A DNA stretch of 64,000 nucleotides from Eubacteriales bacterium (GTDB lineage Bacteria; Bacillota; Clostridia; Lachnospirales; Lachnospiraceae). Under the pieces are notes generated by a model. That model searched no databases. It worked only from the letters and a program-made list of their open reading frames with translations, and was not told the origin of the DNA. The first letter of the stretch is position 1, and the number at the start of each line of letters is the position of its first letter. Position numbers and translations under genes: made by a program. Shown here one piece after another: positions 31,557-56,765 of this stretch. The stretch spans positions 29,632-93,631 of the forward strand of contig JAUNGM010000008.1 in NCBI GenBank assembly GCA_030524545.1. Reading direction: 5' to 3'.

Positions 31557-31567
31557 TCTGCGTATTC

Positions 31568-31602
31568 GACGCTCTCCGAAGTTTTCGGAGGGCGTCTTGC
31601 TA
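31568..31602 (+). terminator. Terminator after the L,D-transpeptidase gene
   Basis: Thirteen-position stem gacgctctccgaa / ttcggagggcgtc (one T-G pair) with loop gtt, followed by ttgctat; strong stem but poor T run. Confidence 0.65.
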
Positions 31603-31619
31603 TATACTGGGAAATTTCC

Positions 31620-31648
31620 TTGCAATTCCTTAGACATGTATGTATAAT
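31620..31648 (+). promoter_or_regulatory. Sigma-A promoter of the GH25 muramidase gene
   Basis: TTGCAA (31620-31625), 17-base spacer, TATAAT (31643-31648), 65 bases before the start at 31713. Confidence 0.65.
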
Positions 31649-31712
31649 GAAAATCGTAACAAAACTTTAATATTTAATAAATAATGGCAGGGGAATATCA
31701 CTGGGGGAGAAG

Positions 31713-33314: not shown

Positions 33315-33332
33315 AAGCAGGTGGGGAGAAAA

Positions 33333-34811
33333 ATGAGAAAGAAAGAATTAGGAAGTTTATTACTTGCAGCAGTAATTGGATTTACCGGTATGTTTGGTTT
33401 TGCTCCGGCAAAGGCGGAGGCTGCGACTGTTAATACAGGACAGTTTGTGGTGGTTTTGGATCCGGGGCATGGAGGATATGACTCCGGTGCTGTTGAAGTA
33501 CACAACGGAAAGCAATATGTGGAGTCTGAAATCAACTGGAAAATCTCTAATTATACGAAACAGGAGCTTTCAAAATACAGCAATATAAAAGTAGTTCTTA
33601 CCAGGACAAAGACAGAGTGTCCGAGCCTGGCGGCAAGAGTAATGACTGCAAAGAAGGCCAAAGCCGATCTGTTGGTAAGCCAGCACATAAACAGTGAAGA
33701 CAGCGGCCTGGCCAGGGGTGCATCTGTTTTGATCTCCCAGGGAACTTACCGGGCGTCTTTGGCAGCCAAGGAAAAACTATTCGGCAGTTATGTTATGTCG
33801 GAACTTGGGAAGCTGGGAATTGCGATGCGTTATCAAGAGAGCGGCGGCATGGAATACCGCCTGAGTGAGAACGGAAGCAGATATCCCAATGGGGGTGTAA
33901 GAGATTACTATGCAATCGTTGCCGGCAGTATTGAAAGCAACTTGCCCGGAGTGATCATTGAACACGCTTTTATCAGTAATTATTCAGACGCTGTAAATTA
34001 TTTAAGCACAGATGCAAAACTGAAAAAGCTCGGACAGGCAGATGCCAGAGCTATTGTGAAATATATCAAACAGCTTCCGGCCAGAGAGGAGCCGTTGGAT
34101 CCATCTAAAAAGAACGGATGGAAGAAAGAAAACGGAGCTTACTACTATTATAAAAATGACGTAAAAGCTGTCAATAAGATTCTGACTATAAATGGAGAAG
34201 TCTATTATGTAGACAAAAAGGGAAAGAGACAGTATGGCTGGAAGACCTTCCAGGGAAAGACCTATTATTTTCAGGAAGACGGTACGGCATGGCTTGGCTG
34301 GATGCGCATGGATGGAAACTGGTATTACTTTAACAGTAAGAAGGGGTATCTGTACAAAAATACCAAGCTTGAATCAGGTACCGGTAAAATGTACATTTTT
34401 GACAAAGATGGCAAGCGGCAGGAAGGCTGGACAACGTTTGAGAAAAAGCGTTATTATATCGGAGCCGGCGGTTATGCAGTGACCGGTTTTGAAAAAATCG
34501 GAAGAAATTATTATTATTTTGACCCAAAAGAGGCATATTTAGTAAAGCATAAGAAGATTACTACATCAGACGGAGCGCTTTATTATATTGATCCGAACGG
34601 GATTCGTTTTAATAAAGGACTCAAGGAACTAAAAGCCGGCACATATTATTTCACCGCCAGCGGCAAGGCACACACAGGCTGGCTGAAATACAAAGGAAAA
34701 TACTATTACTTTAATAAAAAAACAAGGGTCATGCTGAAAAATACAACCCTGAAATCCGGCGGCAAGGTATATAAATTTAATGCCAAAGGTGTTTGTACCA
34801 ACCGGAAGTAA
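33333..34811 (+). CDS. Secreted N-acetylmuramoyl-L-alanine amidase with wall-binding repeats
   Basis: A 492-residue exported enzyme that would cleave the bond between MurNAc and the stem peptide. A signal peptide ends near residue 30 (AEA-AT). The Amidase_3 domain (about 36-245) has zinc ligands in LDPGHGGYDSGA, VESEIN and SQHINSE, and the catalytic glutamate in IIEHAFISN. Residues about 260-492 are aromatic wall-binding repeats like those of the two preceding proteins. I start at the ATG at 33333, five bases after GGGGAG; the GTG at 33321 precedes that site. Likely cotranscribed with the GH25 gene and possibly with rfbB 38 bases downstream. Confidence 0.92.
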   Translation: MRKKELGSLLLAAVIGFTGMFGFAPAKAEAATVNTGQFVVVLDPGHGGYDSGAVEVHNGKQYVESEINWKISNYTKQELSKYSNIKVVLTRTKTECPSLAARVMTAKKAKADLLVSQHINSEDSGLARGASVLISQGTYRASLAAKEKLFGSYVMSELGKLGIAMRYQESGGMEYRLSENGSRYPNGGVRDYYAIVAGSIESNLPGVIIEHAFISNYSDAVNYLSTDAKLKKLGQADARAIVKYIKQLPAREEPLDPSKKNGWKKENGAYYYYKNDVKAVNKILTINGEVYYVDKKGKRQYGWKTFQGKTYYFQEDGTAWLGWMRMDGNWYYFNSKKGYLYKNTKLESGTGKMYIFDKDGKRQEGWTTFEKKRYYIGAGGYAVTGFEKIGRNYYYFDPKEAYLVKHKKITTSDGALYYIDPNGIRFNKGLKELKAGTYYFTASGKAHTGWLKYKGKYYYFNKKTRVMLKNTTLKSGGKVYKFNAKGVCTNRK

Positions 34812-34849: not shown

Positions 34850-35932
34850 ATGAGAACTTATTTAGTAACAGGCGGCGCCGGATTTATCGGTTCTAACTAT
34901 ATTCACTACATGTTTGAAAAATATGGAGATACCATCCGTATCATCAACGTAGATAAGCTGACTTATGCAGGAAATCTGGAAAACCTCAAAGACATTGAGA
35001 ACAAAGAAAACTATACTTTTGTTAGAGCAGATATCTGTGACAGCGATGCGATCATGAAGATCTTCGAGGAAAATGACATTGACCGTGTCGTACATTTTGC
35101 TGCTGAGAGCCATGTAGACCGCAGTATCAAAAATCCGGATGTATTTGTAAAGACAAATGTACTGGGAACGCTTGTGATGCTGAATGCAGCAAAAGCCGCA
35201 TGGGAACTGCCGGACGGAAGCTTTAAAGCTGATAAGAAATTCCTGCATGTATCCACAGATGAGGTATATGGTTCTCTGGAAGAGGACGGCGGGTATTTTT
35301 ATGAGACTACTCCGTATGCACCGCACAGCCCGTATTCTGCCAGCAAGGCATCTTCCGATATGCTGGTAAAAGCGTATATGGATACTTATAAATTCCCTGC
35401 AAATATTACCAACTGCAGCAACAATTACGGACCGTACCAGTTCCCGGAGAAGCTGATTCCGCTGATTATCAACAATGCTCTTCAGGGTAAGAAGCTTCCG
35501 GTATACGGGGACGGAAAAAATGTCCGCGACTGGCTGTATGTCATGGATCATGCAAAAGGAATCGATATGGTACAGGAACAGGGCAGACTGTTTGAAACCT
35601 ATAATATCGGCGGACATAATGAAAAACAGAATATTCAAATTATTCATATCATTCTGGATACGCTGCAGGAAATGCTGCCGGACGATGACCCTCGTAAGAA
35701 ACTGGTAAGTGAGGAACTGATCACTTATGTAGAGGATCGTAAGGGACATGACCGCCGTTATGCCATTGCTCCGGATAAGATTAAGGCAGAAGTGGGCTGG
35801 TATCCGGAGACCTGCTTTGAGGATGGAATCCGTCTGACGATCCAGTGGTTCTTTGAACATGAAGACTGGATGAAAAATGTGACAAGCGGAGATTATCAGA
35901 AATATTACGAGGAAATGTATCAGACCAAATAA
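34850..35932 (+). CDS. rfbB: dTDP-glucose 4,6-dehydratase
   Basis: A 360-residue short-chain dehydrogenase-type enzyme that converts dTDP-glucose to dTDP-4-keto-6-deoxyglucose, the second step toward dTDP-rhamnose and the branch point to aminosugars. NAD-binding GGAGFIGSNYI is at residues 8-18, the catalytic region has HVSTDEVYGSL and the YSASK pair (Y-x3-K), and NNYGPYQFPEKLIP is typical of RmlB. Both users of its product occur in this window: rfbC/rfbD for rhamnose, and the WecE-type aminotransferase. It stands apart from rfbA and rfbC, next to the aminosugar genes. Ribosome site AAAGGAG. Confidence 0.96.
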   Translation: MRTYLVTGGAGFIGSNYIHYMFEKYGDTIRIINVDKLTYAGNLENLKDIENKENYTFVRADICDSDAIMKIFEENDIDRVVHFAAESHVDRSIKNPDVFVKTNVLGTLVMLNAAKAAWELPDGSFKADKKFLHVSTDEVYGSLEEDGGYFYETTPYAPHSPYSASKASSDMLVKAYMDTYKFPANITNCSNNYGPYQFPEKLIPLIINNALQGKKLPVYGDGKNVRDWLYVMDHAKGIDMVQEQGRLFETYNIGGHNEKQNIQIIHIILDTLQEMLPDDDPRKKLVSEELITYVEDRKGHDRRYAIAPDKIKAEVGWYPETCFEDGIRLTIQWFFEHEDWMKNVTSGDYQKYYEEMYQTK

Positions 35933-35943
35933 GAAAAATGGCG

Positions 35944-35988
35944 GCTGTCTGCCGGATCCTGCAGGAAATGGCAGGGCCGGCAGGCTGC
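35944..35988 (+). other. GC-rich intergenic hairpin without T run
   Basis: About 17 pairs form between 35944-35962 and 35971-35988 (core tctgccgg / ccggcag and cctgc / gcagg) around an eight-base loop. No T run follows, so it is not a standard terminator; it may adjust mRNA stability or partial readthrough after rfbB. Confidence 0.5.
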
Positions 35989-36013
35989 TGCATCTTAGGC
36001 AGAAAGAGGAAAT

Positions 36014-36976
36014 ATGAATACAGTAATTCATCGGCTGCATTGGGAAGAAAAGGATGGCAATTCTCTTTATATAAAAAGGGAGGATCTGCTTCCTTTTTCC
36101 ATGGGCGGAAATAAAGTCAGGATTGCAGAGGCGCTTTTGGCGGATATGGAGGGAAAAGGCTGTGACAGCATGATCATTTATGGAAGTGTTCACTCCAATC
36201 TTTGCCGTGTTCTGTCCAATTTTTGTTATCACCGGAAGATAGAATGTACCATGATCTGTTCCCATGAGGAGGACGAGGGGCAGATCGCAACGAATAATGA
36301 GTCTCTGATCAGGTGGACAGGAACGGAAATCGTACATTGCGCGAAAGCAGAGATTGCGCAGACTGTGGATGCTGTTATGGAGAAAATCTGCCGAAAGGGA
36401 AAAAAGCCCTATTATATTTATGGAAGCAGACTTGGAACAGGAAATGAGGGAACGCTTGCATCTGCCTATGCAGACGCTTATAAAGAGATTACGGCGTATG
36501 AGAAAAAGATGGGGTGGGAGTTTGACTATCTTTTTTGTCCATCCGGTACTGGTGCGACTCAATCCGGGCTGATATGCGGACATTTGCTGGCAGGTGACCA
36601 CAAAAAAATCATGGGTGTTATGATATCCTCCCGGGAAACAGAGCGAGCATACAGGGTTGTAGCAGACAGCGTTCAGGCTTATTTCGAAAAGTGCGGGCGG
36701 TCTCTGCCTGAGGAATTTGAGCAGGAAATTCATTTGCTGGATCAGTACCGTCAGGAAGGCTACGGCAAATATGATGAACGCATCATTTCCTGTCTGGAAC
36801 AGGCATATCTGCAGGATGGGATCCCTCTCGACCCTGTTTATACAGCAAAAGCCTTCTGGGGAATGAAAGAATATCTCAGGGAAAAGCCGATCAAAAACAG
36901 CAGGATTCTGTTCCTCCATACAGGCGGAACGCCGTTGTTCTATGATTTCCTGGCTGACCGGGAAGGGCAGAGATGA
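36014..36976 (+). CDS. PLP-dependent enzyme, ACC deaminase/D-cysteine desulfhydrase family
   Basis: A 320-residue fold-type II PLP enzyme. Lys34 in SMGGNKVR is the expected Schiff-base lysine, the asparagine-serine region GSVHSNLCR would hold the substrate carboxylate, GTGATQSGL is the phosphate-binding loop, and LDPVYTAKAF and LHTGGTP are typical later motifs of the D-cysteine desulfhydrase/ACC deaminase group. The true substrate cannot be told from the sequence; family members act on small D- or cyclic amino acids, or diaminopropionate-like compounds. Its place between rfbB and a GT2/ATP-grasp pair suggests it makes or consumes an amino acid used to decorate a sugar. Ribosome site AGAGGAA. 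Confidence 0.82.
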   Translation: MNTVIHRLHWEEKDGNSLYIKREDLLPFSMGGNKVRIAEALLADMEGKGCDSMIIYGSVHSNLCRVLSNFCYHRKIECTMICSHEEDEGQIATNNESLIRWTGTEIVHCAKAEIAQTVDAVMEKICRKGKKPYYIYGSRLGTGNEGTLASAYADAYKEITAYEKKMGWEFDYLFCPSGTGATQSGLICGHLLAGDHKKIMGVMISSRETERAYRVVADSVQAYFEKCGRSLPEEFEQEIHLLDQYRQEGYGKYDERIISCLEQAYLQDGIPLDPVYTAKAFWGMKEYLREKPIKNSRILFLHTGGTPLFYDFLADREGQR

Positions 36977-37004
36977 TCGGCAATGATAAAAACCGGAGGA
37001 GAGA

Positions 37005-38000
37005 ATGTTAGTTTCAGTTGTAATTCCATGCTATTATTCGCAGCCCACCATAGAGAAAGTGGTGGAAATGGTAATGGCAGAGTTTGAAAAAAATGATGGA
37101 TATGAATGTGATTTTGTGCTGGTGAATGACGGTTCCAAGGATGGAACCTATCAGGAAATACGGAAGCTTGCATCCCGCTATCCCAATGTACGGGGTGTGG
37201 ATCTCATGCGGAATTTCGGACAGCATAATGCGCTTATGGCTGCGTTATCCTATGCAGACGGAGAGTATATTCTCGGGATGGATGACGATATGCAGACGCA
37301 TCCCTCCCAGATTTTTAAATTGATTCATAAAATGGAAGAGGGCTATGATCTGGTGTATGGCATCTATCCCTCCAGAAAAAATTCCCGGCTCAAAAATTTT
37401 TCCAGTAAATTGAATGAAGTAACCTCCAGAATCATGCTGAACAGACCAAAAGAAATATCATCCAGTAATTTCTGGATCATTACGAACGCTGTAAAAGAGG
37501 AAGTGGTGAAGTATAAGAGCTACAATCCCTATATCGACGGCGTTTTTTATCGTGTTACTCACAATATCGGAAATGTGGAAGTGGAACATTTTAAAAGGGA
37601 GCAGGGAAGCTCCAATTATACGTTCCGGAAGCTGTTGAATTTGTGGCTGGCGTATTGGAATTTTTCAGTGATTCCATTAAGAGTTTCTTTTTTTCTTGGA
37701 GTTTTTGCAGGAATCGCAGGGGTGCTGATCGCTGTTCTTGTGGTGATCAATAAACTGCTACACCCGGATGTTCCGGTAGGATGGTCTTCGTCTCTCTGTG
37801 TGACGGTACTGTTCTTTGCGCTGGTATTGATGGTGCTGGGCATTATAGGGGAGTATCTGGGCAAAATCATCCTGATCCTGAACGATACGCCGCAGTATAT
37901 TGTCCGGAATACGGTGAATACAGAACAGCGGACAGAGAATGATAGAAAAATAAAGGAAGAGCCGGATGATAAAAAAGTCAGAATTCAGCAAAATGAGTGA
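37005..38000 (+). CDS. GT2 polyprenyl-phosphate glycosyltransferase (ArnC/GtrB/DPM1-like)
   Basis: A 331-residue membrane-bound glycosyltransferase. The GT-A domain (1-220) begins VSVVIPCYYSQPTIEK and has the nucleotide/metal motifs FVLVNDGSKDGT and MDDDMQTHPSQI; two C-terminal membrane helices (about 232-258 and 266-292) and the closing GEYLGKIILILNDTPQYIV are hallmarks of enzymes that move a sugar from a nucleotide to undecaprenyl phosphate on the inner face. Given the WecE-type gene nearby, the sugar may be Fuc4N. Two SMR/EamA half-size proteins downstream could flip the product, as ArnE/ArnF do. It overlaps the ATP-grasp gene by 35 bases. Confidence 0.88.
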   Translation: MLVSVVIPCYYSQPTIEKVVEMVMAEFEKNDGYECDFVLVNDGSKDGTYQEIRKLASRYPNVRGVDLMRNFGQHNALMAALSYADGEYILGMDDDMQTHPSQIFKLIHKMEEGYDLVYGIYPSRKNSRLKNFSSKLNEVTSRIMLNRPKEISSSNFWIITNAVKEEVVKYKSYNPYIDGVFYRVTHNIGNVEVEHFKREQGSSNYTFRKLLNLWLAYWNFSVIPLRVSFFLGVFAGIAGVLIAVLVVINKLLHPDVPVGWSSSLCVTVLFFALVLMVLGIIGEYLGKIILILNDTPQYIVRNTVNTEQRTENDRKIKEEPDDKKVRIQQNE

Positions 38001-39213
38001 TCGTAAGAAAATCATGATTCTGGGAGCCGGTATTTACCAGGTCCCGTTGATCAAAACAGCCGGAAAAATGGGACTTTTTACGGTTGTTGTAAGCATTCCG
38101 GGAGAGTATCCCGGTTTTCGGTGGGCAGATAAAATCTACCATATAGATACAAGAGATAAAAGGGCAATCCTGGAAATTGCGAAACAGGAGAAAATCAGCG
38201 GAATCTGTACTGCAGGAACAGACGTGGCAGTTGCATCTATTGGATACGTATGTGAAAAGATGGGGCTTGCCGGGCTTTCTGAAATGGCAGCGTCCTGCGT
38301 GACAGATAAGGCCAGGATGAAGGAGGCCTTTGTCAGGGGCCAGGTATCCACGGCAAAATACAGAAAAGCTTTTACAGCTATAGAAGCAGAGGAAGCAGCC
38401 CAAGAGATTGGGTTTCCTGTTGTGGTAAAGCGTGTGGACAGCTCAGGCAGCAGAGGGATTACGATTGTGGAAAAGGCAGCGGGAATACGGGAAGCCTTTG
38501 CCAGAGCAATGGAGTGTTCCTGCAGGGATTACGTGCTTGTAGAGGAACTGCTGACCGGAAAAGAAATCGGTGTGGACGGGATGATTCAGGACGGCAGAGT
38601 CGTTTTTGCCGCTCCTCATGAGAAACTTCTGTTCCGCGGAGAACGGATCACCGTTCCGGCAGGCCATGGATTTCCGCTGAATGCTTCCAAAGCGCAGATA
38701 GAAGAAATCACCCGCCAGATGCAGCTTGCGGCTAAGGCTGCAGGAATGGATCAATGCCCGTTTAATGCGGATGTTATGGTAAATGGAAATCGGGTTTCCG
38801 TGATTGAAATGGGAGGAAGAACAGGGGCCACCTGCATTCCGGAGTTGATCTCCATGTATTATGGATTTGATTTTTATGAGATGATACTTCGCAATGCCAT
38901 GGGACTTTCCGTAGACTTTACGGAAAGCGAAGAGAAGATCCCATGCATGGCAAGGCTTTTGATGAGTCCTGTGGATGGAACGATCACACGGATTGATGAA
39001 GCAGGGCTTCAGGAGATAAGAGACAAGGGAACGGAAGTGGTTCTGGACTTTCCTACAGGGCACCCGGTGGAAAAAATGGAGAATGGAACTACCAGGATCG
39101 GGCATGTCATTGCCCGGGCGGAATCAGAGCAGGAGCTTGAAGAAGTCGTGAACCGGGTAAACCGATGTATCAGCATCAATGATCGATCATTAGAGGAGTT
39201 ATGGAGAAAATAA
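37966..39213 (+). CDS. ATP-grasp ligase of unknown substrate
   Basis: A 415-residue enzyme with a pre-ATP-grasp nucleotide-like domain (KIMILGAGIYQVPLI, residues 15-100), a central ATP-grasp region (VVVKRVDSSGSRGI, VLVEELLTGKEIGVDG) and metal ligands in NADVMVNG and VIEMGGRTG. Such enzymes join a carboxylate to an amine or thiol through an acyl phosphate. Overlapping the GT2 gene by 35 bases and followed by SMR genes, it probably acts on the same sugar or its substituent, for instance coupling an amino acid to the 4-amino group made by the WecE-type protein; this is inference. Start at 37966 has AAGGAAG seven bases upstream; the ATG at 37993 has none. Confidence 0.85.
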   Translation: MIKKSEFSKMSDRKKIMILGAGIYQVPLIKTAGKMGLFTVVVSIPGEYPGFRWADKIYHIDTRDKRAILEIAKQEKISGICTAGTDVAVASIGYVCEKMGLAGLSEMAASCVTDKARMKEAFVRGQVSTAKYRKAFTAIEAEEAAQEIGFPVVVKRVDSSGSRGITIVEKAAGIREAFARAMECSCRDYVLVEELLTGKEIGVDGMIQDGRVVFAAPHEKLLFRGERITVPAGHGFPLNASKAQIEEITRQMQLAAKAAGMDQCPFNADVMVNGNRVSVIEMGGRTGATCIPELISMYYGFDFYEMILRNAMGLSVDFTESEEKIPCMARLLMSPVDGTITRIDEAGLQEIRDKGTEVVLDFPTGHPVEKMENGTTRIGHVIARAESEQELEEVVNRVNRCISINDRSLEELWRK

Positions 39214-39566
39214 AGAATTATATATTCCTTCATTTATGTGTGCTGCTGTTTTCGTTTACAAGCGTATTTTCAAAGATGGCGTCCGCACAGCTTACGGATG
39301 GGGGATTCCGGAATCCGAAATTATATGTATTTGCTTTTCTTATGCTGGCAGACTGCTTTTTCTATGCAATCTGCTGGCAGAAAATTATAAAAAAGTTTGA
39401 CCTGAACATTGGATATGCCAACCGGAGTGTCTATTTGTTCTGGAGCCAGATATGGGCAGTGGTTATCTTTGGAGAAAGCCTGACCATGAAAAATATCATC
39501 GGCCTGCTGATTGTTTTTGCCGGTGTTGTCGTTGTGTCGGTCAGTGCGCAGGAGAGAAAGGATTAG
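39201..39566 (+). CDS. Small multidrug resistance/EamA-like half transporter (first of pair)
   Basis: A 121-residue protein with four membrane helices (about 8-24, 43-62, 73-92, 98-115), ending in a charged SAQERKD. The pattern, with a conserved glutamate in FGESLTMKNIIGLLIVFAGV, is that of the SMR/EamA group, including ArnE/ArnF flippase subunits and drug exporters. It overlaps the ATP-grasp gene by 13 bases and is followed at once by a second, different protein of the same type, so a heterodimer is likely. By context it would flip a lipid-linked sugar across the membrane. Ribosome site AGAGGAG. Confidence 0.82.
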   Translation: MEKIKNYIFLHLCVLLFSFTSVFSKMASAQLTDGGFRNPKLYVFAFLMLADCFFYAICWQKIIKKFDLNIGYANRSVYLFWSQIWAVVIFGESLTMKNIIGLLIVFAGVVVVSVSAQERKD

Positions 39567-39570
39567 AATC

Positions 39571-39906
39571 ATGGTTCCTTATATATTACTGATGTTCGGC
39601 GCCACCTTTTTTTCAGCAGTTTCCCAGGTTCTGCTGAAGCAGAGTGCCAATAAAGAGCATAATCATCCGATTTTTGAATATTTAAACTGGAGAGTTCTTA
39701 CTGCATACGGCATATCTTTTTCCGTATTGTTTTTAAATATGTATGCCTATACTAAGGTAGACATGAAGTACGGGGCCGTCATTGACACGTTCAGCTATGT
39801 GTTTGTCATGCTCCTTTCCTGGCTGATTCTCCGGGAAAAATTTACAAAGGGGCAGATGATCGGGAATCTTCTTATCATTACAGGAGTATTTGTCTATATG
39901 GTATAA
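39571..39906 (+). CDS. Small multidrug resistance/EamA-like half transporter (second of pair)
   Basis: A 111-residue protein with four predicted helices starting MVPYILLMFGATFFSAVSQV. An SQVLLKQSA segment in helix 1 and the closing LREKFTKGQMIGNLLIITGVFV match SMR/EamA proteins. It begins four bases after the first half transporter; GGAGAGAAAGG is the ribosome site, so I use the ATG at 39571 rather than the longer frame from 39511, which lies inside the previous gene. With its neighbour it resembles the ArnE-ArnF pair that flips undecaprenyl-phosphate aminoarabinose in Gram-negatives. The end of the gene lies inside the first copy of a 60-base repeat. Confidence 0.82.
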   Translation: MVPYILLMFGATFFSAVSQVLLKQSANKEHNHPIFEYLNWRVLTAYGISFSVLFLNMYAYTKVDMKYGAVIDTFSYVFVMLLSWLILREKFTKGQMIGNLLIITGVFVYMV

Positions 39907-40020
39907 TGTGAACACTTAATGAGCGCAAGCCGAAGGCGCGGCATGAATTTAGTGACCATGGTATAATGTGAACACTTAATGTATACAAGCCAAAGACTCA
40001 GCGCGAATTTAGTGAGAACA
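39898..40020 (+). repeat. Two tandem 60-base repeats with outward promoter-like sequence
   Basis: Copies 39901-39960 and 39961-40020 share an exact 23-base start (atggtataatgtgaacactt plus aat) and similar ends (gaatttagtga), with different middles. Each copy has cactt...agtg arms that can fold on themselves, and TGGTATAAT, an extended -10 promoter motif. The first copy includes the last six bases of the upstream gene. Spacer 39907-40106 shows no other gene. Confidence 0.75.
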
Positions 40021-40106
40021 CATGCCTGAAAAAATAAGCGTTGAATTTGTCAGGTGATTATGCGAAAATAACAGAAGAATATGTTTCTTAAAAAGAGGGT
40101 TTGATG

Positions 40107-41237
40107 ATGATAGATTTTAACAGACCGGCTTTTGTTGGAAAGGAACTGGAATACATGAAAGATGCCATAGATATGGGAAGGCTGTGCGGTGACGGACTGT
40201 ACACACGCAGGTGTTCTTTATGGATGCAGGAGCGATTTCATGTGAACCATGTCCTTCTGACAACCTCCTGTACCCATGCGTTGGAGATGGCTGCCTATCT
40301 TTCGGATATTCAGCCGGGGGAAGAGGTCATTATGCCATCCTATACGTTTGTGTCTACGGCAGATGCATTTGTGCTGCGCGGGGCAAGAATCGTTTTTGTG
40401 GATATCAGGCCGGATACGATGAACATAGATGAAAAGCTGATCGAAGCTGCCATTACCCCCAAAACGCGGGTAATCGTACCGGTACATTACGCAGGAGTAG
40501 CCTGTGAGATGGATACGATCATGGGGCTTGCAGATCAATATGGATTGAAGGTTATCGAGGATGCAGCTCAGGGAGTCGATGCTTCCTATAAGGGAAAGGC
40601 TTTGGGAACGATTGGGGACTTTGGCTGCTACAGTTTTCATGAAACGAAGAATTATACTATGGGAGAAGGCGGTGCGCTGGTCTTCCGGAACGAGGAATAT
40701 CTGGAAAGGGCGGAAATCCTCAGAGAAAAGGGAACAGACAGAAGTAAGTTCTTTCGGGGACAGGTGGATAAATACCGCTGGATGAATTATGGTTCCTCCT
40801 ACCTTCCAAGTGAGCTGAATGCCGCATATCTGTACGGGCAGTTGGAGTCCAGTGAGCAGATTCAGAAAAAACGTATGGCAATATACAATTATTACCACGA
40901 GAATCTGCACCATCTTGCACAGGAGGGAAAAATTGAACAGCCGTTTGTTCCCCGTGAATGCAGCCACAATGCACATATGTATTATTTCAAAGTGCGTGAT
41001 ATACAGACGAGAGACCGTTTGATCGGCTGGCTTAGAGAGCACGGCATTCAGAGTGTATTTCATTATGTTCCGCTTCACAGTTCTCCTGCAGGAATGAAAT
41101 TCGGGAGATTTTTCGGAGAGGATGTATATACAACGAAAGAAAGCGAACGGCTTTTGCGCCTGCCAATGTATTACAATTTGGATATGGAAGACGTGAAGCG
41201 GATCGTAGACACGATTGATTCTTTTTCCGGATTTTGA
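40107..41237 (+). CDS. wecE: dTDP-4-amino-4,6-dideoxygalactose transaminase
   Basis: A 376-residue PLP aminotransferase of the DegT/DnrJ/EryC1/StrS family. It closely follows my memory of E. coli WecE (RffA) all along its length: LCGDGLYTRRC, EVIMPSYTFVSTADAFVLRG, VIVPVHYAGVACEMDTI, REKGTDRSKFFRGQVDKY and TTKESERLLRLP are almost identical. Lys181 in FHETKNYT is the PLP lysine, at the same number. It would turn the RfbB product into dTDP-Fuc4N. The third ATG (40107) is chosen: seven bases after AGAGGG and giving the same length and MIxFN start as WecE; ATGs at 40104 and a TTG at 40101 are alternatives. Confidence 0.93.
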   Translation: MIDFNRPAFVGKELEYMKDAIDMGRLCGDGLYTRRCSLWMQERFHVNHVLLTTSCTHALEMAAYLSDIQPGEEVIMPSYTFVSTADAFVLRGARIVFVDIRPDTMNIDEKLIEAAITPKTRVIVPVHYAGVACEMDTIMGLADQYGLKVIEDAAQGVDASYKGKALGTIGDFGCYSFHETKNYTMGEGGALVFRNEEYLERAEILREKGTDRSKFFRGQVDKYRWMNYGSSYLPSELNAAYLYGQLESSEQIQKKRMAIYNYYHENLHHLAQEGKIEQPFVPRECSHNAHMYYFKVRDIQTRDRLIGWLREHGIQSVFHYVPLHSSPAGMKFGRFFGEDVYTTKESERLLRLPMYYNLDMEDVKRIVDTIDSFSGF

Positions 41238-41261: not shown

Positions 41262-42596
41262 GTGAAAAACAAACACTCCATTTACAAAATAGTTGCAGCA
41301 GGGCTGCTGTCCGTCGTTCTGGCTGCTGTTCCCGTCTGTGCAGCTTCGCAGGTGAATCTTCAGGAGACCTATGAGATTTCGACGAACAGCATTTCGGGCT
41401 GGCCCCAGGGACCGGAGATCGTTTCGGACACGGGAATTGTGATGGATGCGGATACAGGCGTGGTCTTATATGAAAAAGGTGCGGATGCTCTGCGTTACCC
41501 TGCCAGCATCGTGAAGCTTATGACTCTGCTGGTGGCTGTAGAGAACAGCAGCCTGGATGCTCAGGTGACATTTACGGAGACCTGTCTTCGGGATGTCACA
41601 CCGGATTCTGCCAACATTGGCATGGTGGCAGGAGAGATTGTGAGCATGGAAGAATGCCTTTATGCAATGATGCTTGCCTCTGCAAATGAGGTTTCTACCC
41701 AGATCGCAGAGTTTGTAGGCGGGACAGAAGAGAATTTCATCAATATGATGAATGAAAGGGCACAGCAGCTTGGCTGTGTCAATACCAGATTTATCAATGC
41801 CAACGGGCTTCCGGGAGAGGGACAGTACACGACTGCCCGCGATATGGCGGTGATCTCTCAGGCCTGCTTTGAGAATGAGACAGCGCGTAAGATTATTGAA
41901 ACACAGAGCCATACGATGCCGGCTACTAATATGAATGCTTCCGAACGGCCCTTCAGTTCCCATCATCCTATGATATATGAAGGCCTGCCGGAGTATTATT
42001 ATGAGGGATGTCTGGGAGGTAAGACGGGAAACACCAATGATGCAGGCTCCACGCTGGTTTCCTTTGCAAAGCGCGGTGATATTACGTATATTGTGGTTGT
42101 TTTGAGGGCTGTCGGACTTCCGGAGTCGTGTTTTGATACGGCTGCACTGTTTGATTATGCGTATGACAATTTTGAAAAAAAAGAGATAGAGGGCCGGGGA
42201 GCAGTCACGGTTCCCACAGGAACTGCCATAGAGAATCTGGAGACGAAGGATATAGAGCAGGATGGAAAGACTGTCCGGGAGTATTCCTTCCAGGGACGCT
42301 ATGTGGGAAATGCTCCGGTGCCTGAGCCTTCCGGAATGCCGGTGGAAGAGGTGGGAGATGCGGACGAGGAGCCGCTTTACCGGGCACAGGAAAAGGAAGA
42401 GACCGGTCTGGCACAAACCGGAGAGGCTGCAGGAGTTAAGACGGAAAAGACACAGGAACCTGCACAGGAAAAAGAGGGGATTTCTGACCTGGCCAAGTTC
42501 CTGTTTATAATTATGGGAATGATGTTGGCAGTGCTGGTGATTCTTTTGGCAGCACTGACTGTGAAAAAGAAAAAAAGAATACGAAGAACCAGATGA
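41262..42596 (+). CDS. D-alanyl-D-alanine carboxypeptidase (peptidase S11), membrane-anchored
   Basis: A 444-residue low-molecular-weight penicillin-binding protein that removes the terminal D-Ala from stem peptides. A signal peptide ends near residue 28. Active-site motifs are intact: SIVK (Ser82, Lys85), SAN (140-142) and KTG (254-256). A C-terminal Peptidase_S11 beta domain is followed by an acidic linker and a membrane helix (about 415-438) with a basic end, so the protein is anchored at its C-terminus. GTG start with GAGGG upstream. It sits between wecE and rfbA, and a paralogue on the minus strand (56842-58110) shares the NSIxGWPQG segment. Confidence 0.94.
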   Translation: MKNKHSIYKIVAAGLLSVVLAAVPVCAASQVNLQETYEISTNSISGWPQGPEIVSDTGIVMDADTGVVLYEKGADALRYPASIVKLMTLLVAVENSSLDAQVTFTETCLRDVTPDSANIGMVAGEIVSMEECLYAMMLASANEVSTQIAEFVGGTEENFINMMNERAQQLGCVNTRFINANGLPGEGQYTTARDMAVISQACFENETARKIIETQSHTMPATNMNASERPFSSHHPMIYEGLPEYYYEGCLGGKTGNTNDAGSTLVSFAKRGDITYIVVVLRAVGLPESCFDTAALFDYAYDNFEKKEIEGRGAVTVPTGTAIENLETKDIEQDGKTVREYSFQGRYVGNAPVPEPSGMPVEEVGDADEEPLYRAQEKEETGLAQTGEAAGVKTEKTQEPAQEKEGISDLAKFLFIIMGMMLAVLVILLAALTVKKKKRIRRTR

Positions 42597-42608: not shown

Positions 42609-43487
42609 ATGAAAGGAATTATTCTTGCCGGAGGCTCTGGAACCAGGCTGTACCCGCTTACCAAAGCGATTTCCAAGCAGATCATGCCGGTTTATGACAA
42701 ACCAATGATTTATTATCCCCTGTCCACACTGATGCTTGCAGGAATCAGGGAAATTCTGATCATTTCCACACCGAGGGATCTGCCGGTATTTCAGGAACTG
42801 CTGGGTGACGGCGGCCAGCTTGGCATGAGATTTGCTTATGCAGTTCAGGAAGAGCCAAGGGGGCTGGCAGATGCGTTTATCATCGGCGCTGATTTTATCG
42901 GGAGTGATGCGGTTGCTCTGGTATTGGGAGACAACATTTTTTATGGACAGAGCTTTTCCAGAGTGCTGCAGAATGCATACCGCCGTACAAAGGAGCAGAA
43001 AGGCGCGACGATTTTCGGTTATTATGTAAGAGATCCGAGAGAGTACGGCGTAGTGGAATTTGATGAGGAAGGCAATGCTCTTTCCATTGAAGAAAAACCG
43101 GAAAAGCCGAAATCAAATTACGCAGTGCCGGGCCTGTATTTCTACGACAATGATGTTGTGGAAATTGCAAAGAATGTAAAGCCGTCTGCAAGGGGTGAGA
43201 TTGAGATTACCAGTGTCAATAATGAGTATCTGAAGAGAGGAACATTGAAGGTGGAGACTCTTGGCCGCGGATTTGCATGGCTGGATACGGGAAATCATGA
43301 TTCCCTGCTGGATGCGGCTGATTTTGTAGCAGCTTTCCAGAAACGCCAGGGCCTTTATATTTCCTGTATTGAGGAGATTGCATATAAACGGGGATTTATT
43401 ACAAAGGAGCAGCTTGTGGCGCTGGCCCAGCCTCTTTTAAAAACAGCATATGGAAAATACATGATCGAAGTAGCGGAGGGATTATAA
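42609..43487 (+). CDS. rfbA: Glucose-1-phosphate thymidylyltransferase
   Basis: A 292-residue enzyme that joins dTTP and glucose-1-phosphate to dTDP-glucose, the first step for dTDP-rhamnose and dTDP-aminosugars. The nucleotide-binding start [17 protein letters not shown], the catalytic lysine in [28 protein letters not shown] and the [20 protein letters not shown] region are those of RmlA. The ATG at 42609 follows GAGGAGG. It lies 12 bases after the carboxypeptidase and one base before rfbC. Confidence 0.97.
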
Positions 43488-44049: not shown

Positions 44050-44865
44050 ATGATAAAGACAATGTTTTCCCTGCCGGTGGATGTGTACAGAAACCGGCAG
44101 TTGATCATGAAGCTGGCAAAAAATGATTTTAAGACCAGATATGCCGGTTCTTATCTTGGAACGATATGGGCTTTTATCCAGCCTATTGTAACGATATTGG
44201 TGTATTGGTTCGTGTTTTCCGTTGGTTTCCGTTCAGATACGGGAGAACTGGGAATTCCCTTTGTCCTTTATCTGGTAGCCGGGATCGTACCCTGGTTCTT
44301 CTTTCAGGATGCTCTGGTGGGAGGAACCAATTCGCTTCTGGAATATAATTATCTTGTAAAAAAAGTCGTTTTTAATATCAGCGTTCTTCCTGTGGTAAAG
44401 ATTATTTCCGCACTGTTTGTACACTGCTTTTTCGTTATGTTTACCATTATTCTGTATATGGCTTATGGGAAACTTCCGGACTGGTATTATCTGCAGATCA
44501 TTTATTACAGCTTCTGTACATTTGCGCTGGTTCTTGGAATGTGCTATGTCACCTGCTCTGTGGTGGTATTTTTCCGTGATCTGACACAGATCATTAATAT
44601 CGGACTGCAGGTGGGGGTCTGGCTGACACCTATTATGTGGATCGCAGAAACCTCCCTGAAGGAACATGCAACCATCCAGAAGATTCTTCAATTAAATCCG
44701 GTATATTATATTGTATCAGGGTACAGGGATTCTTTTATCATGAAACACTGGTTTTTTGAGCGGCCTATGTGGACTGTGTATTTCTGGGCAGTTACCATTC
44801 TCTGTTTTGTATTTGGCAACTGGGTGTTTAAGCGGCTGCGTATTCATTTTGCAGATGTATTATAA
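44050..44865 (+). CDS. Polysaccharide ABC exporter permease (Wzm/TagG/RgpC-like)
   Basis: A 271-residue ABC-2 permease with six membrane helices. The beginning LIMKLAKNDFKTRYAGSYLG, the GTIWAFIQPI segment and the later LNPVYYIVSGYRDSF are the conserved marks of the family exporting O-antigen, teichoic acid and rhamnan chains on a lipid carrier. With the ATPase encoded 17 bases downstream it forms a full exporter. The gene order rfbA-rfbC-permease-ATPase is like that of streptococcal rhamnose polysaccharide loci. No Wzy-type polymerase or Wzx flippase is visible, so export of a completed chain by this route is the most likely model. Confidence 0.93.
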   Translation: MIKTMFSLPVDVYRNRQLIMKLAKNDFKTRYAGSYLGTIWAFIQPIVTILVYWFVFSVGFRSDTGELGIPFVLYLVAGIVPWFFFQDALVGGTNSLLEYNYLVKKVVFNISVLPVVKIISALFVHCFFVMFTIILYMAYGKLPDWYYLQIIYYSFCTFALVLGMCYVTCSVVVFFRDLTQIINIGLQVGVWLTPIMWIAETSLKEHATIQKILQLNPVYYIVSGYRDSFIMKHWFFERPMWTVYFWAVTILCFVFGNWVFKRLRIHFADVL

Positions 44866-44882
44866 AGAGAGGAAGTAACAAC

Positions 44883-46145
44883 GTGGAAAGCAAAAAAGTT
44901 ATTCAAATCAAGCATCTGGAGAAGATGTACAAGCTTTATGACAAGCCGTCAGACCGTCTGAGGGAGTCTCTTGGGTTCAGCAGGAAGAAGCTTTACCGTG
45001 AGCATTATGCCCTGCGGGATATCAATTTTGACGTACATGAAGGGGAATGTGTGGGAATCATCGGAACCAACGGCTCCGGGAAATCAACCATTCTGAAAAT
45101 CATTACAGGTGTTCTTGCTCCTACGGCCGGAAGCGTTGAGGTGGATGGACGGATCTCCGCACTTTTGGAGCTGGGAGCCGGATTTAACGGCGAATACTCC
45201 GGTCTGGAAAATGTATATCTGAACGGAACTATGCTGGGATTTTCCAAAGAAGAGATTGACAGGCGTTTAGACAGTATCCTGGAATTTGCGGATATTGGTG
45301 ATTTTATCAATCAGCCGGTAAAAACCTATTCCAGCGGTATGTTTGTACGCCTCGCTTTTGCTGTTGCGATCAATATTGATCCGGAGATTTTGATTGTTGA
45401 TGAGGCTTTGTCCGTGGGGGATGTTTTTTTCCAGGCAAAGTGCTACCATAAATTTGAAGAGTTTAAGAAACAGGGAAAGACGATTCTTTTTGTCAGTCAC
45501 GACCTGGGAAGTATTGTAAAATACTGCGACAGGGTCATTCTTTTAAATCAGGGTGTCATGCTTGATCAGGGTTCTGCCAAGGAAATGGTAGATATGTATA
45601 AGCAGCTTCTGGTGCATCAGAATCCGGTGAAGCAGGGGAGCTCTGACGGGGAAGAGACAGCAGGAGAGAATTGGCGGGAAGGCTTTGCTGTGAACCCGGA
45701 TACTCTGGAGTATGGGGAAAAACAGGCGGAAATCGTTGATTTTGTCGTTCTGGACTGCAAAGGACGCCAAAGCAATGCCATTGACAAAGGAACCAGATTT
45801 CAGATAAAGATGCGGGTGCATTTCAACGAAGATATTCAGCAGCCGATCATGGCATATACATTTAAAAATATTCAGGGAACCGAGATCACGGGTACCAATA
45901 CCATGTATGAGAAAGTATACGTCAGGCATCCGGAGGCAGGGAAAACCTGCGAGGTTACATTCGAGCAGGAGATGAACCTTCAGGGAGGAGAATACCTTCT
46001 GTCTTTCGGGTGTACAGGCTACAGAAACGGGGAATTTACCGTGTTCCACCGTCTTTATGATGCATGCAACATTACGGTTGTTTCATCTAAGGATACGGTA
46101 GGCTTTTATGATATGAATTCCCGGATATCAGTAAAAGAAGATTAA
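44883..46145 (+). CDS. Polysaccharide ABC exporter ATPase with extra C-terminal domain (Wzt-like)
   Basis: A 420-residue ATPase. The N-terminal half is a TagH/Wzt-type nucleotide-binding domain with Walker A GTNGSGKST (61-69), signature YSSGMFVRLAFA and Walker B EILIVDEAL. Residues about 255-420 form a beta-rich domain (IVDFVVLDCKG, AYTFKNIQGTEITG, FEQEMNLQGGEYLLSFG), the type that in Wzt of E. coli O8/O9a recognises the chemically capped chain end before export. A GTG start at 44883 follows AGAGAGGAAG. The two genes after it encode a methyltransferase and a kinase-like protein, just what such a recognition domain would need. Confidence 0.93.
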   Translation: MESKKVIQIKHLEKMYKLYDKPSDRLRESLGFSRKKLYREHYALRDINFDVHEGECVGIIGTNGSGKSTILKIITGVLAPTAGSVEVDGRISALLELGAGFNGEYSGLENVYLNGTMLGFSKEEIDRRLDSILEFADIGDFINQPVKTYSSGMFVRLAFAVAINIDPEILIVDEALSVGDVFFQAKCYHKFEEFKKQGKTILFVSHDLGSIVKYCDRVILLNQGVMLDQGSAKEMVDMYKQLLVHQNPVKQGSSDGEETAGENWREGFAVNPDTLEYGEKQAEIVDFVVLDCKGRQSNAIDKGTRFQIKMRVHFNEDIQQPIMAYTFKNIQGTEITGTNTMYEKVYVRHPEAGKTCEVTFEQEMNLQGGEYLLSFGCTGYRNGEFTVFHRLYDACNITVVSSKDTVGFYDMNSRISVKED

Positions 46146-54272: not shown

Positions 54273-56765
54273 ATGAAGGGAATAAAACGGAAGATACGGA
54301 CTTTGGCAAGAGACCCCGAAGTCATTTCCCAGATCCTGCTCGCAGCCGCATTGCTGGCCAGCTGCTTCATCCTGTTTTGGAATTATCTGTTTGGTGACGA
54401 ACTGATGGTATACTACGGCATCGGAAATGACACTCTGCAGCAGTACACCATGCACTATGCGGGAATCATTAATCATCTCCGCAATGGAAGCTTTTCCTTC
54501 TGGGATTTTACCAATGGATTCGGGATAAATCTTTATGGGCTGAATTTGTTTGATCCGACCCTGATCCTGCTGTATGCTGTCGGCGTAGTTCTGGGGCCTG
54601 CACATATGCTGATTTATTTAAGCTGGGTTCAGGTACTGCGGATTCTGGCTGCCGGCTGGATCTTTTACCGATATCTGATGAAGTTTCCGTTCGGCAGGCA
54701 GACCAGATTTGCTGCGGCGTATATTTACGGGCTGAACGGGTATCTTCTGGTATGGGGGCAGCATTACCAGTTTGGAATCGTGACCTTTTATTTCCCGCTG
54801 ATGCTGTTGTTTGCCGAGAAGTTCCTGCGCAGGGAAAAAGGCGGTGCCTTTTTTCCGGTGTCCGTATTTCTCTGTGCATCCGACAGTGTGTATTTCAGTT
54901 ATATGAGCCTGATCGGTGTGGGATTCTATCTTCTGTTCCGTGTCTGGATGATGGACGGATGGAAGATAAAGGAGAGAATCCTGCGTTTTGGTGCAGGCTG
55001 TGTACAGATCCTGCTGGGAATTGCCATGAGTGCAGGGACTTTTTTGCCGATGGCAAGTGTGCTGCTGAATGTTACTAACCGTATCAGCGAAGAGGGATCC
55101 GGAATTGCCGGATGGCTTAAAAATCTGTTTACCTTTTATGATAAAGAATATTACAACATGCTGCAGATGCGCCTGTTTTCTTCCCTTTTGGAGAATTCGG
55201 ATTATCTGATAGGCGGACCCGGAAGATGGAATTATTACGAAGCGCCTGTGCTTTTCTGCTGTACGCTGACGGTGTTCCTGGCAGTTCAGTTCCTGGCAGT
55301 CTATTGGAGAAGCGGGGCTTCCAGGCGCAGGAAAGCGGCCGTCTACACTGCAGCGGTACTTATGATTCTTTGTGTATTGATGCCCTGGGGCGGAACGATG
55401 TTCAATTCCTTTGTAGAACCGAGCCACCGTTATACGTTTGTGCTGATTCCGTTTTGGATATTAGCAGGTGTATGGATGTGGGATGAACTGAAATCAAAAG
55501 GAAGGATCTGCCGGATTGGTCTGATCCTGACAGAAGCCTTTTTGCTTTGGGTGATCTATGTGGGCTATACGCACAGCCAACTGAAGCTGTACAGGAGAAA
55601 TGCCGTTGTGCTTGGTCTGACAGGAACCGTGATGGCGCTGGGTATTGCCGTACTTGCTGCAGTGAAAGCGGGAAAGGCCCGCCGGGCAGCTATGATACTG
55701 ATGGCAGCTGCTTTAACAGTGAATGTACTTTCCGAAGGAGCGGCAGGATACAGGAACAGGCTTACTTTGCGCAAACAGGATACGGATCCGGAGGTGATGG
55801 AAGAGCTGAGAGAAGAATATACGGCTCTTGTGAATCAGTACGGAGAGATTAAGATCACTGAAATCATGGAAAGACCGCAGGATTATTTCCGTGTCATGTA
55901 TTTTCCGGAAATTCAGGAGATTGAAGAATATCTAAGAGAGATCGATCCGGAATTTTACCGTATGGAAAAGGATTACTGTACAGGTACGTGGGCAATGGAT
56001 TCCCTTGCACAGGAATATCGGGGAATCAGTACCTATAATTCTGTCATGAACGGAAATATCAGGGAGTTTGTGGATACCTGCTATCCGGAGCTGTATTATC
56101 TGGATAAAAACCATTATGTGTTCTGGCCGAATGCAGAGGATCATTGGTTTGCTGCTTTTACGGGTATCCGTTATCTTGTCTCCAGGGAACCGGATCTGGA
56201 TGCGTCCAAATACAGGCTTCTGAAGCAGTTTGATAATATCTATCTTTATGAAAATGTCTTGGAGGCGGATATTGCCAGGTTTTATGATACGGCGATTTCA
56301 GAGGAGAGCCTGAAAGAGCTTTGTTCCGGCGGGACAAGGCAGGAGCTGCTGGATCATGCCATAGCGATTGAGGATGGAACGGATGTTTCGGATATGCAGG
56401 AGTTTCGGAATCTGACGGGGGACACAGATGCAGCAGAAAAATCTTCAGTAACATTGAATAACCCGGAAAAGGATTCTTACATTACCGGAAGGGTTCAGGC
56501 ATCCTCTGACGGATACGTTCTGTTTATGATCCCTTATGAAAAGGGATGGAGCCTGTCCGTTGACGGTGAAGATACGGAGCTGATAAGGGGAGATTTAGGA
56601 TTTCTGGCATGCCGTGTGGAGGAAGGAGACCATGAACTGGAACTGACCTTCCAACCGCCGCTTCAGAGAGAGGGAATCGTGACAGCAGTCGTGTTTTGGG
56701 CAATTTACGGAATGTGGCTGGTTTGGGAACACAGAAGAAAGCGAACTGCAAATGTCCGCAGATAA
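54273..56765 (+). CDS. YfhO-family GT-C type membrane glycosyltransferase
   Basis: An 830-residue protein with about 12-13 membrane helices in residues 25-480 and a large outer domain after them, plus a last helix near 800. The first outer loop carries IGNDTLQQY, whose aspartate is placed like the catalytic residue of GT-C enzymes, and the GFGINLYGLNLFDP segment is typical of YfhO (PF09586). YfhO proteins take sugars from undecaprenyl phosphate and add them to wall or lipoteichoic acids outside the cell. This would be the last part of a three-component system with the GT2 at 37005 and the SMR pair at 39201-39906. It may also be used for GlcNAc or glucose; substrate is not proven. Confidence 0.85.
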   Translation: MKGIKRKIRTLARDPEVISQILLAAALLASCFILFWNYLFGDELMVYYGIGNDTLQQYTMHYAGIINHLRNGSFSFWDFTNGFGINLYGLNLFDPTLILLYAVGVVLGPAHMLIYLSWVQVLRILAAGWIFYRYLMKFPFGRQTRFAAAYIYGLNGYLLVWGQHYQFGIVTFYFPLMLLFAEKFLRREKGGAFFPVSVFLCASDSVYFSYMSLIGVGFYLLFRVWMMDGWKIKERILRFGAGCVQILLGIAMSAGTFLPMASVLLNVTNRISEEGSGIAGWLKNLFTFYDKEYYNMLQMRLFSSLLENSDYLIGGPGRWNYYEAPVLFCCTLTVFLAVQFLAVYWRSGASRRRKAAVYTAAVLMILCVLMPWGGTMFNSFVEPSHRYTFVLIPFWILAGVWMWDELKSKGRICRIGLILTEAFLLWVIYVGYTHSQLKLYRRNAVVLGLTGTVMALGIAVLAAVKAGKARRAAMILMAAALTVNVLSEGAAGYRNRLTLRKQDTDPEVMEELREEYTALVNQYGEIKITEIMERPQDYFRVMYFPEIQEIEEYLREIDPEFYRMEKDYCTGTWAMDSLAQEYRGISTYNSVMNGNIREFVDTCYPELYYLDKNHYVFWPNAEDHWFAAFTGIRYLVSREPDLDASKYRLLKQFDNIYLYENVLEADIARFYDTAISEESLKELCSGGTRQELLDHAIAIEDGTDVSDMQEFRNLTGDTDAAEKSSVTLNNPEKDSYITGRVQASSDGYVLFMIPYEKGWSLSVDGEDTELIRGDLGFLACRVEEGDHELELTFQPPLQREGIVTAVVFWAIYGMWLVWEHRRKRTANVRR

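Follow-up and report, generated by a model that had tools for sequence, protein, structure and literature searches.

Introduction

According to the accessible part of PMC8035078, transmembrane glycosylation in Gram-positive bacteria is defined by a set of three components: a family 2 glycosyltransferase (GT2), a flippase and a C-type glycosyltransferase (GT-C). Here we analyse a locus in a stretch of 64,000 nucleotides from a Eubacteriales bacterium of the Lachnospiraceae (GenBank assembly GCA_030524545.1, contig JAUNGM010000008.1, positions 29,632 to 93,631 of the forward strand; hereafter the window). Its core of seven genes encodes the dTDP-glucose 4,6-dehydratase RfbB, a pyridoxal phosphate (PLP)-dependent enzyme, a GT2, an ATP-grasp ligase, two half-size proteins of the small multidrug resistance (SMR)/EamA type and the sugar aminotransferase WecE. 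Taken as a whole pathway, we consider it probable that this locus makes acylated 4-amino-4,6-dideoxygalactose (Fuc4N), which would be carried on a lipid, flipped and added to a wall polymer. The recurrence of the set in many genomes indicates that it is more than a chance assembly.

In the modification of lipid A, ArnC, ArnE and ArnF handle an undecaprenyl-phosphate-linked 4-amino sugar with a two-subunit SMR flippase, which makes them the nearest lipid-linked aminosugar system with a flippase of this kind. Unlike the window, this Gram-negative system uses 4-amino-4-deoxyarabinose derived from UDP-glucuronate, protected by a temporary N-formyl group instead of an acyl group added by an ATP-grasp enzyme.

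The nearest known architecture is that of the CsbB/GtcA/YfhO type. As predicted for the window, the CsbB/GtcA/YfhO, GacI/K/L and CsdA/CflA/CsdB systems combine a GT2 that makes an undecaprenyl-phosphate-linked sugar with a flippase and a GT-C, several of the latter being YfhO proteins. As far as the accessible text of PMC8035078 goes, these systems act on rhamnan or teichoic acid, and the sugars they add are galactose, glucose, N-acetylglucosamine or unknown, whereas the window is predicted to use an aminodideoxy sugar, a ligase and an SMR-pair flippase.

The sugar itself is also made in the Fuc4NAc branch of the enterobacterial common antigen, in which, as predicted for the window, enzymes of the RmlA/RmlB kind and WecE lead to dTDP-Fuc4N; WecD then gives dTDP-Fuc4NAc, and WecF transfers this sugar from the nucleotide (PMC12212991, accessible part). 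Unlike that branch, the set studied here comes without WecD, the usual Fuc4N acetyltransferase, which scores above its cutoff in none of the 26 genomes carrying the ligase (weak matches in 5 of 26; above the cutoff in 1 of 14 controls). Acetylation of Fuc4N by WecD was rejected as an alternative on these counts.

A precedent for the acylation of a nucleotide-linked aminosugar by an ATP-grasp enzyme is found in the Pat/Pyl pathway to UDP-yelosamine of Bacillus cereus (Hwang 2014, via PMC8987622). There, as predicted for the window, a nucleotide-linked sugar receives its 4-amino group from an aminotransferase, and an ATP-grasp enzyme ligates an acid, in this case 2-oxoglutarate, to that amine. 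The two are compared by description only, and they differ in that the Pat/Pyl sugar is UDP-FucNAc-4N rather than dTDP-Fuc4N and its acid comes from central metabolism; unlike the system predicted here, the available part of the description does not mention a PLP lyase as partner, a lipid carrier or a flippase. In the literature searched, with most subscription journals outside its coverage, we found no description of the present gene set, no paper joining Fuc4N with an ATP-grasp enzyme and none joining an ATP-grasp enzyme, 1-aminocyclopropane-1-carboxylate (ACC) deaminase, a polysaccharide and an aminotransferase; nor did we find there a known system that combines a Pyl-like ligase, the CsbB/GtcA/YfhO architecture and an SMR-flipped lipid-linked aminosugar.

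Predicted pathway and composition of the core

In the proposed pathway, RfbA and RfbB together with WecE would produce dTDP-Fuc4N, and the ATP-grasp ligase would join an acid to the 4-amino group of Fuc4N as an amide; an amino acid is the most likely candidate, a 2-oxo acid a possible one. The PLP enzyme would prepare this acid and, in some relatives, may pass it on inside one fused protein. The GT2 is predicted to transfer the sugar onto undecaprenyl phosphate and the SMR pair to flip the lipid-linked sugar, after which a YfhO-type GT-C would complete the process outside the cell by linking the sugar to a wall polymer; the rhamnan exported by Wzm/Wzt is the probable acceptor. Protein families, co-inheritance, gene fusions and retained catalytic residues are directly observed in the sequences; the individual reactions, the question of whether acylation or lipid transfer comes first, and the identities of acid and acceptor are inferred.

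The original prediction had named the seven genes, and all of them are present as tightly packed open frames on the plus strand with matching family models (Table 1). It had also proposed that Fuc4N is made, linked to a lipid, flipped and acylated; as a conditional reading of the sequence this proposal is upheld, since its steps fit the co-occurrence of WecE, the adjacency of the GT2, the fusions of PLP enzyme and ligase, and the exchange of flippases described below. WecE passes the equivalog cutoffs of both NF008687 (628.5 bits against 375) and TIGR02379 (618 against 435), and its nearest chains in the PDB are 6blg and 4piw. The GT2 matches PF00535, carries two hydrophobic segments at its C-terminus and scores 166 bits with the PgfS profile and 130 bits with that of ArnC, each below the cutoff of the model. 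Both SMR halves score weakly; the first matches the QacH, ArnE and ArnF models (E-values of 2e-4 to 4e-4), all below cutoff, and also falls under the Pfam cutoff for EamA. The previously claimed overlap of 35 bases between the GT2 and ATP-grasp genes holds provided that the start at 37966 is correct; the motif AAGGAAG lies just upstream of that start.

Co-inheritance of the ligase, WecE and the GT2

Among 299 genomes of the family, that of the window included, a homologue of the ligase is found in 59 at E <=1e-30 and in 26 at E <=1e-50. WecE (E <=1e-110) is present in all 26 genomes of this close ligase clade and in 69 of the 273 others (Fisher 7.9e-15, a p-value that overstates independence because the genomes are related). 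The surroundings of the ligase were compared in 27 loci of the same family (25 genomes besides that of the window) and in 80 loci from GTDB, kept out of at least 119 confirmed; four are shared, so that the 107 loci reduce to 103 non-redundant ones. The score thresholds for counting neighbours at ligase and PLP loci were set by us, and the GTDB loci, having been chosen through the ligase, favour ligase-adjacent genes.

Within 1.5 kb of the ligase, a GT2 is found in 25 of the 27 family loci, 70 of the 80 GTDB loci and 91 of the 103 non-redundant loci; SMR proteins are that close in 12 of the family loci, the PLP enzyme in 11. At 12 control loci (L061-L071 and L073; L numbers are our locus handles, G numbers those of genomes), drawn from 48 places with weaker ATP-grasp matches, a GT2 was found within 1.5 kb in one and anywhere in the locus in two. 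This control is not a clean negative, because L065 and L069 do hold homologues of WecE, GT2 and SMR, and because the weak ligases of L080-L082, fetched since WecE adjoins them, likewise adjoin a GT2 or YfhO; the link with WecE, GT2, SMR and YfhO thus extends beyond the close ligase clade. The simplest cassettes consist of WecE, GT2 and ATP-grasp ligase in a row, preceded by YfhO in L115, L122, L124, L133-L135, L139 and L150. The neighbourhood comparison in related genomes that had been suggested for these genes therefore shows that they do travel together.

The same loci bear on a different explanation, in which two systems overlap: WecE would feed unacylated Fuc4N into the backbone exported by Wzm/Wzt, and the GT2, the SMR pair and YfhO would add an ordinary sugar. 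A homologue of the sugar-phosphate transferase WbaP is present in 10 of the 11 loci fetched around WecE genes away from the ligase (L083-L093 minus L088 being the ten), and WecE without a close ligase occurs in 69 of 273 genomes, as this explanation would have it. Against it stand the rows of WecE, GT2 and ATP-grasp ligase, with or without YfhO in front, in many genomes; the SMR1-SMR2 pair beside WecE in 4 of those same 11 loci (L083-L085 and L090); and the ordinary-sugar three-component systems, for which the accessible part of PMC8035078 lists no ligase. We consider such an overlap of two systems quite improbable.

The close ligase clade appears to be mostly confined to the family and its near kin, since the only genome with a match at E <=1e-55 among 398 of the phylum is that of the window. 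The GTDB matches listed also include Paenibacillus (L116 and L137), Chloroflexi (L166) and Deferribacterales (L160). In the two Paenibacillus loci the ligase adjoins a WecE-like aminotransferase (35-36% identity), without a GT2.

The PLP enzyme and its ATP-grasp partners

The PLP enzyme finds its best NCBIfam models in the group of D-cysteate lyase, D-cysteine desulfhydrase and ACC deaminase, the top two at 152-161 bits and below their cutoffs; with the D-cysteine desulfhydrase model TIGR01275 it reaches 152 bits against a cutoff of 289, and its residues match at both discriminating places. The PLP lysine K34, S61, N62, Y250, Y276 and the HTGG stretch are kept in all 27 aligned members of its clade. 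ACC deaminase requires Glu295 and Leu322 (PMC4048297, accessible part), and in an alignment to 1rqx the window enzyme has Thr at both places, as in D-cysteine desulfhydrase. The place of Leu322 is Thr in 27 of 27 clade members, and that of Glu295 is Thr in 10 and Ser in one of 11 aligned rows. An identity as ACC deaminase was rejected on the two substitutions in the window enzyme.

In 13 of the 128 rows of a ligase tree the ATP-grasp protein continues at its C-terminus into the PLP enzyme as a single fused protein, and these rows fall in two distant parts of the tree. Separate origins are likely because the tree (FastTree, with local support only and long branches) needs three state changes, two of them forced by well-supported branches; two separate gains are thus the likely history, and a gain plus a loss is also allowed.

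Independent of any choice through the ligase are the counts from the family search and from a sample of the phylum outside the family. The family search yielded 16 members of the PLP clade and one contig-end fragment (the window, 15 rows, and the fragment L038 in genome G093), all 17 of them within 7.5 kb of an ATP-grasp gene, which is of the window kind in 12 and PRK12767/PylC-like in five; L038 and the incomplete GTDB members L151 and L152 were scored among the distant PLP rows. In genomes G237 and G263, counted with the 12, the fused ligase is itself of a distant kind and has a window-kind ligase next to it. The phylum sample added four members from three genera, all directly beside a PylC-like ATP-grasp gene and all in loci with a DegT aminotransferase, one of which (L204) continues with RfbA and RfbB. 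In total, 21 of 21 clade members, the window included, lie near an ATP-grasp gene, against none of 14 distant homologues from the family search (L174-L187, of which four loci are short, at 5.0 to 11.5 kb, and where only the two modelled ATP-grasp kinds are detectable).

The PLP enzyme therefore pairs with a different ATP-grasp protein beside a sugar aminotransferase in what read as other sugar pathways. L074 and L078 show the order of a PseB/PglF-kind dehydratase, a LegC-kind aminotransferase, a sugar-phosphate transferase, the PLP enzyme and an ATP-grasp protein, with one small frame after the dehydratase in L078; the dehydratase and aminotransferase models stay below their cutoffs, and the ATP-grasp model of L074 is above. 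In the bacillosamine pathway the amine is acted upon by the acetyltransferase PglD. The presence of the pair in these putative aminosugar loci and in those of the phylum sample is the strongest argument that PLP enzyme and ligase would together acylate the 4-amino group.

The PLP enzyme might instead serve the recycling or detoxification of D-cysteine or D-serine, while the substrate of the ligase would be an ordinary amino acid, for example alanine or glycine. The Thr residues shared with D-cysteine desulfhydrase in place of E295 and L322 (PMC4048297, accessible part) agree with such a role, as does the absence of the enzyme from the vicinity of most ligases (see below). Against it speak the fusions with the ligase, found at two widely separated places in the ligase tree, and the contrast between 21 of 21 clade members and 0 of 14 general homologues, and we regard the recycling role as rather unlikely.

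The ATP-grasp ligase

The best solved relative of the ligase is 4dim (204 bits), deposited as a phosphoribosylglycinamide synthetase; the next, carbamoyl-phosphate synthase and BacD, are far weaker, at no more than 55 bits. K115, K155, E281 and R285, which we take to have roles as ligase residues, are invariant across 25 aligned sequences: the window ligase plus 24 from the 27 family loci (L048, L059 and L060 were left out, the last two being incomplete). The LAL_C2 domain and the BacD-like matches would suit a bacilysin-like system, in which the product of the ATP-grasp and PLP enzymes would be a free dipeptide or other small metabolite and the glycan genes are incidental neighbours. This seems highly improbable in view of WecE in 26 of 26 ligase genomes, of the adjacent GT2 and of the PLP clade, whose members in other glycan loci lie near a different ATP-grasp protein and a DegT aminotransferase.

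In 5 of the 27 family loci and 13 of the 80 GTDB loci a second ATP-grasp protein lies within 1.5 kb of the ligase, an arrangement that could provide two acyl groups or a dipeptide. In L049, L050, L052, L055 and L154 two different ligases adjoin, one of them fused to the PLP enzyme in four of the five; acylation there may proceed in two steps or add a dipeptide.

Two further proteins were noticed near the ligase. A PaaK/CapK-like protein of about 434 residues (L119, 10843-12177) lies within 4 kb of it in 42 of 103 loci and co-occurs with the PLP enzyme once only; its NCBIfam matches are weak and the representative has no Pfam match. A WbqC-family protein (PF08889) is found near the ligase in 5 of 107 loci, e.g., L171 (7280-7972).

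Flippase and outer transferase

Within 4 kb of the ligase, 42 of the 103 loci hold SMR proteins and 16 a Wzx-type flippase (representative PF01943), and none holds both. Such mutual exchange is what would be expected if both did the same job, in loci that relatedness makes non-independent. A YfhO-type GT-C is present in 25 of the 103 loci, and in relatives it adjoins the GT2, WecE or the ligase. The set of seven genes first proposed was incomplete: it stands as a core, having overlooked the YfhO-type GT-C of the window and the framing genes RfbA, RfbC, RfbD and Wzm/Wzt. From its predicted activity, the YfhO-type protein would supply the final step that this set lacked.

Evidence against the proposed pathway

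Several observations weigh against acylation and lipid-linked transfer of Fuc4N as the function of these genes. The GT2, SMR and PLP proteins match broad families without reaching the cutoffs of specific named enzymes, and the relatedness of the genomes, noted above, tempers the association with WecE. Parts of the set are often missing around the ligase, in loci some of which stop at contig ends: 12 of 103 have no GT2 within 1.5 kb, 62 have no local WecE and 45 have neither kind of flippase nearby. The 69 genomes with WecE and no close ligase indicate that Fuc4N is also put to other purposes or is handled by other ligases. In 79 of the 103 loci no PLP enzyme is nearby; it is thus not essential to the core, and the acid of some ligases must come from general metabolism or be made in another way, for which the PaaK/CapK-like protein described above is a candidate. 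Finally, in L202 and L203 a protein of 174 residues that reads as acetyltransferase-like separates the sugar transferase from the PLP enzyme.

Genes around the core

The core is surrounded by genes for RfbA, RfbC and RfbD (assigned by reading the sequence), the Wzm/Wzt exporter, large glycosyltransferases of polymer synthesis, a WbaP-type transferase and the YfhO-family GT-C. RfbA homologues also occur near the ligase in 10 of the 80 GTDB loci.

Table 1. Genes of the core and selected neighbours in the window.
Feature	Position	Strand	Basis
RfbB, dTDP-glucose 4,6-dehydratase	34850..35932	+	TIGR01181, 482.7 bits (cutoff 365)
PLP fold-II enzyme, D-cysteine desulfhydrase/ACC deaminase group ("DCD clade")	36014..36976	+	PF00291
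GT2, GtrB/PgfS/ArnC type; predicted undecaprenyl-phosphate Fuc4N synthase	37005..38000	+	PF00535
ATP-grasp ligase; predicted acylation of the 4-amino group	37966..39213	+	PF13535 and LAL_C2 (PF18603)
SMR/EamA half 1; predicted ArnE/F-like flippase subunit	39201..39566	+	weak EamA and SMR matches
SMR/EamA half 2; predicted flippase subunit	39571..39906	+	PF00892, PF00893
WecE, dTDP-4-keto-6-deoxyglucose aminotransferase; predicted product dTDP-Fuc4N	40101..41237	+	NF008687, TIGR02379
RfbA-like glucose-1-phosphate thymidylyltransferase (dTDP-glucose supply)	42609..43487	+	open frame, sequence reading
Wzm/Wzt ATP-binding cassette exporter of wall polysaccharide (the polysaccharide being the possible acceptor)	44050..46145	+	PF01061, PF14524 (Wzt_C)
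YfhO-family GT-C; predicted lipid-to-acceptor sugar transfer outside the cell	54273..56765	+	PF09586, 181 bits

Just upstream of the core (28803-34811), an L,D-transpeptidase, a lysozyme of glycoside hydrolase family 25 and an amidase stand in a row, and the latter two both match choline-binding-type repeats. D,D-carboxypeptidase-like genes flank the polysaccharide genes at 41262-42596 (PF00768) and 56842-58110 (sequence reading), and a homologue directly follows WecE in the Blautia loci L094, L148, L151, L153 and L154.

Much of the gap before WecE is filled by two copies (83% alike) of a 58-base unit (39898-40015) that overlap the stop of the second SMR gene. The unit belongs to a dispersed repeat family: if up to two mismatches are allowed, the genome holds 14 occurrences of its core pattern, several of these in pairs, against none for a reversed control. 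An Rfam search of the window gave no match, no tRNAs were found in it, and a PHROGs search returned weak matches only, to families of unknown function.

Elsewhere in the same genome, L073 (G000:C29, 106400-126300) contains RfbA, a DegT aminotransferase (31%), a WbaP-like transferase and another ATP-grasp protein (29%), and is possibly a second locus for an acylated aminosugar.

Significance for Lachnospiraceae cell walls

According to the accessible part of a recent review (PMC12413058), the wall polysaccharides of gut Lachnospiraceae are immune-recognised, as in the case of the glucorhamnans of R. gnavus, and FucN4N is the sole residue with a positive charge among the gut glycans of commensal or food origin that it covers. 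DltA scores above its cutoff in 1 of the 26 ligase genomes (another of them, G090, reaches 535 bits against a cutoff of 560) and in 2 of 14 controls, a scarcity that fits a replacement of D-alanylation as a source of positive charge and is no proof of it.

A more general proposal is put forward tentatively, as a possibility we hold with less than even confidence: PLP enzyme and ATP-grasp ligase may form a two-enzyme acylation module for bacterial 4-amino sugars, of which we found no earlier account and in which the former makes a dedicated unusual acid, e.g., a D-amino acid, and the latter couples it. The module would be attached to at least two pathways, lipid-carried dTDP-Fuc4N and the pgl-like UDP-GlcNAc-kind loci, where an N-acetyltransferase is expected; in gut Lachnospiraceae it would yield a charged wall decoration and may replace D-alanylation.

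The recurring set represents a putative cell-wall decoration of gut Lachnospiraceae for which we found no description. If the proposed pathway is true, PLP enzyme and ATP-grasp ligase would emerge as new partners in several sugar pathways, and Fuc4N bearing an aminoacyl or other acyl group would be a widespread piece of new surface chemistry, together with a genetic handle on it.

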